Shown here: piece by piece, positions 38,483 through 45,878 of the stretch | Layout: each line of letters starts with the position of its first letter | How positions within the stretch are numbered: position 1 is the stretch's first letter | NCBI GenBank assembly: GCA_021604525.1 | Contig: BQJD01000001.1 | Location: 124,001-188,000 of the forward strand | Origin: a marine bacterium B5-7 | GTDB taxonomy: Bacteria > Pseudomonadota > Gammaproteobacteria > Arenicellales > CAJQKF01 | Direction of reading: 5' to 3' | Length of the DNA stretch: 64,000 nucleotides | The notes under the pieces: generated by a model | Database searches by the model: none | The model's input: the letters and a program-made list of their open reading frames with translations, nothing else | What the model was told of the DNA's origin: nothing | Position numbers and translations under genes: made by a program

Positions 38483-38551
38483 AAGCTATTAAGGCCAGTA
38501 CAAATGTGAGCTTTCAAATTGACTAAGAACTGGCACGGTAGTGTTGATAAA

Positions 38552-38580
38552 AAAAGCCCGGCGTGAAACCGGGCTTTTCA
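38552..38580. terminator. Bidirectional terminator between the RAM-domain and cytochrome genes
   Basis: Stem AAAAGCCCGG (38552-38561) with CCGGGCTTTT (38569-38578) around loop CGTGAAA, with A-rich and T-rich flanks on both sides. It serves the rightward trpD transcript and probably the leftward cytochrome gene. Confidence 0.87.
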
Positions 38581-38597
38581 TAATGTTGAAAAAAGTG

Positions 38598-43434: not shown

Positions 43435-44571
43435 TTACCGTAATGGTGGACTAAACAGTAATCCTCCGCCTTTCCAGGAACGGTTAGCTCCGCGGCTGAT
43501 ATTCATCTCGCTGTGCCGTCCTAGATAACGATCGAAGATCTCGCCGTAGTTGCCGGAGCCTGCGATGATGTTACGTGCCCATTGTGGATCCAATCCAACG
43601 TTGGCGCTTCCGGTCATAGGATCAACACCCAAAAGACGTCGTATAGAGGGGTCTGGGCTGTCGAGGAACTCCGTATAGTTTTCACGACTAATCCCTTTTT
43701 CCTCCGCGAAGATAGTGGCAAAGATAGTCCAGCGCACAACGTTTCCCCAAACCATGTCGTCAACATTAACGTATGCGACTAGTGGTTCGCTGGAAATGAC
43801 CTCATCGTGAAGTACGTAATTATCGGGGTTCTCAACAGCGGTTGAGCGTGTGGTGGCCAGCACCAACCGGTCGCTAGTGAGTAAATCACATCGCCGGGAA
43901 AAGAAGGCATCATTACGGCCTTCTGAAGACTCGAATTCCAGCACTTCCCATTCAAGGTTGTTGATTTTGATGTAATCTTTTAGGTTGACAATTGTAGTGG
44001 TTGCGCGGGAAACACACACGGTTGCAGTTTTCAAGTCCGTGATCGCACCGGGTACTGTTCCGAGGTGCGACAGAAAGCCCTGACCATCGTAATAAAGGAC
44101 TGCCGCTGGCGTCAGACCTAATTCCATATCTCGTGAAAACGTCCATGTGACGTTTGAGACATAGACATCGACATCACGCTCCGAGATGCTTTGGAGCCCG
44201 TGCCGTATCAGCATGGGAGACATGAGTACAGCATTGCGATCATTAAATAAGGCAAGAGCAATGATGCGGCAGAACTCGGGAAAAAATCCTTCGTAACCAC
44301 TCTCGCCAATGCGTGTGTCGCCGACTGGGCGGTTGCCTATGGCGCACTTGACGTAGCCGCGCTCTAATACTTCATCAAGCGTGCCTCCAAACACGCTTGA
44401 TGAATTCATCATTATAGCTGGCATGAGACAGGCTACAACAATAAGTGGAGTACGCGAGGTTAGTGATTGAAGTGAAGCGCCTAGTATCGATTGTGCAGAG
44501 AAAGGAAGTTCATAAAAAGTGCAACGATGACACAGTTTTTGTACCTTACGAACAAATTTATTAATGACCAT
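43435..44571 (-). CDS. Periplasmic amino-acid-binding protein (AapJ-like), without transporter genes
   Basis: 378 residues with a long, hydrophobic N-terminal export segment (about 38-62), then the general amino-acid-binding pattern: VLERGYVKCAIGNRPVGDTR, GFFPEFCRIIALALF, FSRDMELGLTPAAVLYYDGQGFL and QWARNIIAGSGNYGEIFDRYLG. The AapJ family normally precedes aapQMP permease genes; here none follows, and the next gene is the membrane cyclase. The protein may therefore be a sensor subunit delivering ligand information to the cyclase. The ATG at 44571 gives an N-terminus longer than usual; a downstream start such as Met-52 is possible but less hydrophobic. Confidence 0.88.
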   Translation of the reverse strand: MVINKFVRKVQKLCHRCTFYELPFSAQSILGASLQSLTSRTPLIVVACLMPAIMMNSSSVFGGTLDEVLERGYVKCAIGNRPVGDTRIGESGYEGFFPEFCRIIALALFNDRNAVLMSPMLIRHGLQSISERDVDVYVSNVTWTFSRDMELGLTPAAVLYYDGQGFLSHLGTVPGAITDLKTATVCVSRATTTIVNLKDYIKINNLEWEVLEFESSEGRNDAFFSRRCDLLTSDRLVLATTRSTAVENPDNYVLHDEVISSEPLVAYVNVDDMVWGNVVRWTIFATIFAEEKGISRENYTEFLDSPDPSIRRLLGVDPMTGSANVGLDPQWARNIIAGSGNYGEIFDRYLGRHSEMNISRGANRSWKGGGLLFSPPLR

Positions 44572-44941
44572 CTTGTTTACCTATGGCTTCTGTTGCATCA
44601 CCAACCCTCTAACAAGCAGATATGAAATTCAGACATGATCTGATAAGGAAAATTCTTGCAGCGCATCTGCCAAGAGTAGTCTAAACCAATGAATTTATTT
44701 CTTCGAGTTCTGTCCGCTATCGATCAACAACTCTATCATTGTGTTTTAGCAACAAATTCTCCGTTCGTGCACATGCTTCGCTATTGTATCGAGAAGTTGC
44801 TCGACAAGAACGTACTGCGATGATTGATGGGCAAAACCAGTGGGTTCTGTAAACTTGTTTAAGGGTGGGGTTGAATGCGTCTACGCACTGTAACGGTAGG
44901 ACTATTTGCTGGTTCAGGGCAAATTTATCGTAGGAATTTAT
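44572..44941. other. Gene-poor interval left of the candidate small RNA
   Basis: No supportable protein gene. Upstream of the binding-protein gene this interval should hold its promoter, but no convincing -35/-10 pair was seen. The long minus-strand open frame 44717-45028 runs across the RNA terminator and is rejected. Confidence 0.4.
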
Positions 44942-45025
44942 AAAAAAAAAGCCCCGCTTCATGCGGGGCTTTGCAATGTTCCGTCTGTTAGTCGGAGGTG
45001 ACGGGATGGGGGTACAGACGGAACA
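44942..45025 (-). ncRNA. Candidate small RNA with C-rich loop and terminator
   Basis: On the minus strand, from about 45025 down, a perfect 12-bp stem (45014-45025 with 44977-44988) closes a 25-base loop at 44989-45013. The loop is C-rich, containing ACCCCCATCCC and CACCTCC, the latter matching the anti-Shine-Dalgarno end of 16S rRNA. After a short linker a rho-independent terminator follows: 10-bp stem 44963-44972 with 44948-44957, loop of five, then nine T residues in all. Promoter-like boxes lie exactly upstream, predicting a start at the base of the first stem. The transcript would be about 84 nt. I do not recognise the family. C-rich loops of this kind pair with ribosome-binding sites in known small RNAs. 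Confidence 0.62.
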
Positions 45026-45030
45026 CATTT

Positions 45031-45059
45031 AATTTAACTGAAGAACTTTCCTCTAGCAA
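45031..45059 (-). promoter_or_regulatory. Promoter-like boxes for the candidate small RNA
   Basis: Minus strand: TTGCTA (45059-45054) at -35, a 17-base spacer, and TAAATT (45036-45031) at -10, each four of six consensus bases. The predicted start, about seven bases further, is 45024-45025, the outermost base of the 12-bp stem. Confidence 0.5.
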
Positions 45060-45233: not shown

Positions 45234-45878
45234 CTATGGTTGTGCCGATAGATTAATAAGATGTTCTATGACCTTGAAAAATGTATCGTAGTTTCCAGCC
45301 ATACTGACGGTTGTGACATATTTTCCACCGACGACCATTGACGGAACGCCGGAGATTTCGTACTTGCGTGTCATGACCGCCGCACTACGGGCTTGGGTAT
45401 CCACCGCGAATGAATTAAAAGCGCTAATGAAGTCTGAGGCCGATGGACCGCCATTTTCTTCCACCCACTTGGCCACTGGTTCGACTTCGAACACTCGATT
45501 TAACGGACGTGGTTTTTTATGGATGGCATCAAATAATTTTCCATGGAATTCATCGGTGATGCCTAGTGCTTCAAAGGTGTAAAACACTCTTGCATGAAAT
45601 TCCCACGAATCGCCCAAGACGGCTGGCATGGCTACAAATTCAGCATTTTCCGGCATGGTTTTCTGCCATTCAATGAGCGGCTTCTCAAGGTTGTAGCAGT
45701 GTGGGCAGTGGTACCAGAAGAGTTCGCGAACTTCGATCTTATCGCCAGTCTGTGTTGGTTGCTGTTCGGAGAGCACACGGTAATGAACACCTTCTTCAAA
45801 CTCTGCGGCGAATGTCAGGTGTATAAACGCCAACGGTGATAATACGAGTAACGCGGTGAGGATCAGCTTTCGCATCAT
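45234..45878 (-). CDS. dsbA: Thiol:disulfide interchange protein DsbA
   Basis: 214 residues with a signal peptide (about 1-24, ending HLTFAAE). The active site is CPHC in WYHCPHCYNLE near residues 54-64, and the cis-proline follows in ISGVPSMVVGGKYV. It introduces disulfides into exported proteins and is reoxidised by DsbB, not in this window. Pairing between the thioredoxin fold and helical insertion matches DsbA rather than DsbC (CGYC). It stands between the candidate RNA and mpl, both on the same strand; the gap to mpl is about 40 bases, so a joint transcript is possible. Confidence 0.96.
   Translation of the reverse strand: MMRKLILTALLVLSPLAFIHLTFAAEFEEGVHYRVLSEQQPTQTGDKIEVRELFWYHCPHCYNLEKPLIEWQKTMPENAEFVAMPAVLGDSWEFHARVFYTFEALGITDEFHGKLFDAIHKKPRPLNRVFEVEPVAKWVEENGGPSASDFISAFNSFAVDTQARSAAVMTRKYEISGVPSMVVGGKYVTTVSMAGNYDTFFKVIEHLINLSAQP

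Follow-up and report, generated by a model that had tools for sequence, protein, structure and literature searches.

Comparative evidence for an uncatalogued small regulatory RNA gene with a conserved C-rich loop beside dsbA

Comparison across genomes indicates that the minus strand beside dsbA holds a genuine gene for a small regulatory RNA not catalogued before. It lies in the window, by which we mean the whole 64,000-nucleotide stretch of bacterial DNA that was analysed. The gene is conserved and carries a promoter, a covarying stem, a conserved loop and a terminator. A sequence-only reading had proposed an independent small-RNA gene at this place, and this proposal is now supported by the conservation of loop and terminator and by covariation in the stem. 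The features are as follows.

45054 to 45059, minus strand: -35-like hexamer TTGCTA, with TTG at equal distance in all four family genomes
45031 to 45036, minus strand: -10-like hexamer TAAATT, behind a 17-base spacer and ending 6 nt before the stem, with TA...T at the same position in all four genomes
44942 to 45025, minus strand: predicted small RNA of about 84 nt, both ends inferred, from promoter position, fold (z = -6.7) and conservation in 4 + 7 genomes
45014 to 45025, minus strand: 5' arm of the 12-bp stem, from sequence, fold and covariation
44989 to 45013, minus strand: 25-base C-rich loop ACCCCCATCCCGTCACCTCCGACTA, the presumed target-pairing region, with ACCCCCATCCCGTCACCTCCGAC identical in four genomes and both halves kept in a second order
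44977 to 44988, minus strand: 3' arm of the 12-bp stem, from sequence, fold and covariation
44942 to 44972, minus strand: rho-independent terminator with nine T, from sequence, terminator scan and conservation
45234 to 45878, minus strand: dsbA (DSBA-like thioredoxin domain, PF01323), the upstream neighbour, in the same order in L002, L003 and L004

The elements first read from the letters of the window hold up. The promoter-like pair (TTGCTA-N17-TAAATT, 45059-45031) has its 17-base spacer, and all 12 bp of the stem are paired between 45025-45014 and 44988-44977, beginning 6 bases downstream of the promoter. The folding energy of 91 nt is -38.8 kcal/mol, compared with -17.3 +/- 3.2 for shuffled sequences (z = -6.7; 0 of 200 shuffles). 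The terminator, with its stem at 44972-44948 and nine T residues at 44950-44942, was picked up by a strict sigma-70/terminator scan of the window; the same scan did not list the small-RNA promoter, whose -35 hexamer is only partly consensus. The loop contains CACCTCC, as had been noted, and the interval is indeed free of a credible protein gene: the sole long open reading frame over it, of 103 aa (44717-45028), crosses stem, loop and terminator and was rejected.

Relatives were sought through dsbA homologues in named contigs, which in this family are metagenome assemblies, and in the nearest whole genomes, giving a family set of four: the window's genome (G000), G001 (locus L002), G002 (L003) and G003 (L004). 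In all four the small RNA lies directly 3' of dsbA on the same strand, and the 23 loop bases ACCCCCATCCCGTCACCTCCGAC are identical while the flanks have diverged. Each also has TTG-N20-TA...T ending 6 or 7 nt ahead of the stem, a motif that ends 5-8 nt ahead of a randomly chosen window position with a frequency of about 6e-4. It is this conservation that, as far as sequence can tell, lifts the promoter pair above chance and bears out the claim that the RNA has a promoter of its own; because the promoter is kept at a fixed distance in all four genomes, transcription very probably begins at the base of the stem. What lies downstream varies: in L002 it is a DUF4147/MOFRL protein encoded on the opposite strand, in L004 a cytochrome c and in the window a protein that matches nothing in Pfam, so that a cis-acting leader is unlikely. 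This last protein (43435-44571, minus, 378 aa) looks like a periplasmic solute-binding protein, and it is followed by an adenylate/guanylate cyclase-domain protein (PF00211; 41417-43414, minus).

A further comparison comes from g88, a genus in another order, whose loops also match that of the window. Here the stem has been rewritten, CCUGGUCCAG replacing GUUCCGUCUG, and the loops keep ACCC[CU]CAUC and CACC[CU]CCGAC. The conserved loop thus consists of two halves, ACCC[CU]CAUC and CACC[CU]CC, and extends beyond the anti-Shine-Dalgarno heptamer. In a MAFFT alignment of eight sequences, six of eight stem pairs are changed on both sides with 100% of cells paired, the covariation score is reached by none of 500 shuffles, and slid controls collapse. 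Covariation also holds over 19 matches, with seven pairs showing double-sided changes; the test on eight sequences is the cleaner one, because the 19-match alignment was fitted to the model. Among the four closely related family sequences alone, covariation is not significant. Both the compensatory stem changes and the conserved loop that the sequence-only reading had proposed to look for are therefore found, and stem and terminator, whose joint absence from relatives would have refuted that reading, are present in the relatives, the terminator being kept across the family genomes and g88. A loop that stays fixed while its stem is free to change indicates sequence-specific pairing. As a clean natural experiment, a frozen loop beside a freely changing stem can show which loop features are indispensable.

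How far does the gene extend? The loop pattern, allowing up to two mismatches in 109 genomes of the window's order, matched the four family genomes and was absent from the other 105. A covariance model built from the four family sequences and run on 369 genomes of the class, a sample searched under strict filters so that the true range may be wider, returned two loci in the window's genome, the gene itself and a second one, together with three genomes of the g88 genus; the remaining alignments among those listed have hairpin and terminator only and lack the loop. With a looser loop pattern, matches in the class beyond the window and g88 fall outside a hairpin-plus-terminator context, and a search of the order of g88 with a combined model yielded further members, those outside the model scoring 79-91 bits. 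A scan upstream of argH in 30 genomes recovered the g88 taxon only and was insensitive, missing the window genome's own second copy. A viral origin was rejected, IMG/VR containing no exact match to the loop. Within the window, a terminator hairpin at 38545-38593 (minus) gives a weak 26.6-bit match to the RNA model; it has no C-rich loop and is not a member.

The RNA had not been assigned to any family from its letters, and covariance searches agree. At gathering thresholds Rfam finds three tRNAs in the whole window and nothing else, and at gathering and relaxed thresholds nothing over the respective cut-off was obtained for the RNA, the best hit being Phe_leader (RF01859) at 38.8 bits against 55; an attenuator of that type was rejected on this score and on the differing downstream genes. 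The Betaproteobacteria toxic small RNA (RF02278) shares the general layout of a short hairpin with a terminator and a sequence complementary to Shine-Dalgarno sites, but the window RNA scores 20.6 bits against a cut-off of 50 and differs in stem, loop and promoter. RNAs of that family are expressed in Burkholderia and toxic once cloned in E. coli (PMC4603805, PMC7011215). Across 21 genomes nothing exceeded the RF02278 cut-off of 50, separate RNAs reaching 48 bits; such RNAs (loci L046-L053, for example L049 1501-1560, minus, G001:C76), scoring 37-48 bits in many genomes of the window's order, carry CTCCTCCATCCTCCTTTGGTGG, several with an upstream ATTAGATAAT motif, and apparently form an unlisted gammaproteobacterial branch of this "betaproteobacterial" RNA. 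G001 holds one of these near-cut-off relatives alongside the present small RNA, as separate RNAs. Anti-hemB (Burkholderia RNA 7, RF02837) is likewise a hairpin with a C-rich loop followed by a terminator, but the window RNA scores 18.5 bits and a g88 relative 23.1 against a cut-off of 49.5, the match being mostly to the terminator.

Among the trans-acting RNAs of the polA locus of enterics, vibrios and pseudomonads, Spot 42 (RF00021) gave no match to the window RNA up to E 10, and ErsA, which is encoded near polA, is likened to it by location only, the second paralog described below lying in the same neighbourhood. What appears to be the closest functional analogue is sX13 of Xanthomonadaceae, a compact structured RNA with C-rich loops (PMC3771888). 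The window RNA has the structural features of this functional class, namely a stable stem, a conserved C-rich single-stranded loop and its own terminator. It differs in architecture, location and reported range: sX13 measures 115 nt, carries three small 4C/5C loops and has been reported from Xanthomonadaceae only, downstream of polA, whereas the window RNA consists of a single stem, closed by one 25-nt loop, plus a terminator, and follows dsbA. Membership of the sX13 sequence family was rejected, as neither the location downstream of polA nor the three 4C/5C stem-loops are found. C-rich-loop small RNAs as such are already known; the present one is a new RNA family, from which sX13 and ErsA are set apart by description, and with its strong covariation this family from uncultured gammaproteobacteria is ready for Rfam.

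How might such a loop be used? We consider it fairly probable that the gene encodes a trans-acting small RNA of about 84 nt with its own sigma-70-type promoter, which blocks initiation by pairing of the C-rich loop to translation starts rich in G, a mode of action known from several bacterial RNAs. We envision a scenario whereby transcription from this promoter just downstream of dsbA would yield the RNA, the stem would present the 25-nt single-stranded loop, and a strong U-tailed terminator would end and stabilise the molecule. The loop might then bind several mRNAs at their G-rich initiation regions, with CACCUCC lying on the Shine-Dalgarno sequence and the other half, ACCCCCAUC, across the start codon, and thereby prevent translation from starting. 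Transcription, mRNA pairing, repression, the identity of targets and any chaperone are parts of this scheme that we infer. The loop motif UCACCUCC equals the anti-Shine-Dalgarno tail of 16S rRNA. The complement of the loop, GTCGGAGGTGACGGGATGGGGGT, reads as a Shine-Dalgarno sequence, a spacer and ATG, and for this reason we think that the loop covers both Shine-Dalgarno sequence and start codon of a target; the complement of the g88 loop, GGGGGTGTATCAGATGAGGGT, follows the same plan, with an SD-like run, a spacer and ATG. In a similar way, the C-rich loops of sX13 are reported to act on G-rich motifs near translation starts, with no requirement for Hfq (PMC3771888).

Targets were sought by a wobble-tolerant search with the loop complement in the four family genomes, the reversed loop serving as control. 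There were 21 non-self matches compared with 13 for the control, implying that the majority arise by chance. Two of the three best are napB (PF03892), in G001 and G002, where the ribosome-binding site and an ATG in register offer 14 contiguous Watson-Crick or G-U pairs plus pairing to the AUG, in a duplex of about -33 kcal/mol; about 0.1% of background stretches reach energies as low as this. The C-terminus of NapA is encoded by the same stretch, so conservation of the site carries no independent weight. A search of the window's genome and of G003 did not find napB, which therefore leaves the fixed loop of those two genomes unexplained and was rejected as a universal target; for G001 and G002 it is a striking candidate, though unproven. 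The search brought up no target shared by all four. At 682 crudely called starts, drawn from about a fifth of the window's genome, loop pairing was no higher than for shuffled loops by duplex energies and by k-mer complementarity, which, the calls being crude, is weak evidence against a general anti-Shine-Dalgarno role and says little on specific targets; Shine-Dalgarno motifs themselves are enriched at gene starts of this genome. The pairing through CACCTCC put forward in the sequence-only reading thus draws support from the conserved loop, though from no proven target and from no general enrichment at starts.

The conservation of the loop without an mRNA target common to the four genomes would also suit a decoy, in which the C-rich loop sequesters an RNA with a G-rich or GGA-rich loop, or a C-rich-binding protein, in place of mRNAs. 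RNA sponges are known from other bacteria, but no such partner emerged here, and we regard a decoy as unlikely. Conceivably, the loop might instead compete with the 16S rRNA tail for Shine-Dalgarno sequences at large, damping translation without a defined regulon. The match of UCACCUCC to the 16S tail would suit this view, as would the existence of RF02278 RNAs, which have the same general build, are toxic in E. coli and may do likewise. However, it is the whole loop that is conserved and not the heptamer alone, relatives in the other order have CACCCCC and have lost the perfect anti-Shine-Dalgarno sequence, and start sites generally lack pairing enrichment, so that we think this general competition improbable.

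Yet another view would make the element part of the dsbA 3' UTR, a terminator with a stabilising hairpin that regulates nothing, or a 3'-UTR fragment. In the window's family the RNA invariably follows dsbA on the same strand, in G003 at a distance of only about 40 nt from the stop codon. Against this, the RNA's own promoter is conserved, termination needs no invariant 23-base loop, and its relatives in the other order have no link to dsbA, being placed divergently from argH, leaving such an origin very improbable. Function on the opposite strand, where the loop complement GGAGGTGACGGGATG (plus strand, opposite 44989..45013) could serve as ribosome-binding site of a short leader peptide (MGVQTE), can practically be dismissed: the plus strand does offer a good SD-spacer-ATG, and read in that frame the stem changes between the four genomes are synonymous, but in each of these genomes promoter and U-tailed terminator are oriented for the minus strand, and the would-be peptide of g88, MRVAGPG, is unrelated while the stem covaries.

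The trans-acting RNA that we favour is one member of a paralog pair. The partner locus in the window's genome (G000:C8:56825-56908, equal to L118 8826-8909, minus) is again a C-rich-loop hairpin with a terminator, and it recurs in all four family genomes with identical loop letters TATTCCTTCCTCAAAGCACCCCCAC. Its neighbours are cytochrome c4 on one side and argH, from which it diverges, on the other, and engB and polA are nearby; sX13 adjoins polA, and this paralog sits in the polA-engB-cc4 region. The g88 genus has a tandem of two such RNAs, again divergent from argH, in front of a gene pair for a histidine kinase and a LytTR regulator; the copy nearer argH resembles the second copy of the window's genome (CCTCA ... 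CACCCCCA ... ATCC), and the one farther away resembles the window's RNA. The simplest reading is that of an old tandem pair whose members became separated in the window's lineage. Small RNAs of the C-rich-loop kind occur as paralogous pairs in two orders and are tied to the polA-engB region, a recurrent site of unrelated-looking small RNAs (Spot 42, ErsA, sX13). Whether these have a common origin thereby becomes a testable question. A bolder and rather doubtful extension is that the two RNAs represent an old gammaproteobacterial pair born at the polA-engB-cc4-dsbA-argH neighbourhood, the region of those same three RNAs, with a two-part loop that spans Shine-Dalgarno sequence and start codon at their natural spacing and so would lock whole initiation regions, a device common to unrelated lineages.

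Two further observations concern the argH loci. In G405 there are two argH-small-RNA loci, which differ from each other and sit on separate contigs (L123 = G405:C162 and L125 = G405:C164), reflecting either a duplication or a mixed assembly. Immediately 5' of the second tandem RNA of g88 lies a palindrome, GTTAGT-N7-ACTAAC (L122 8358-8376; also in L123 and L125), possibly the site of a regulator.
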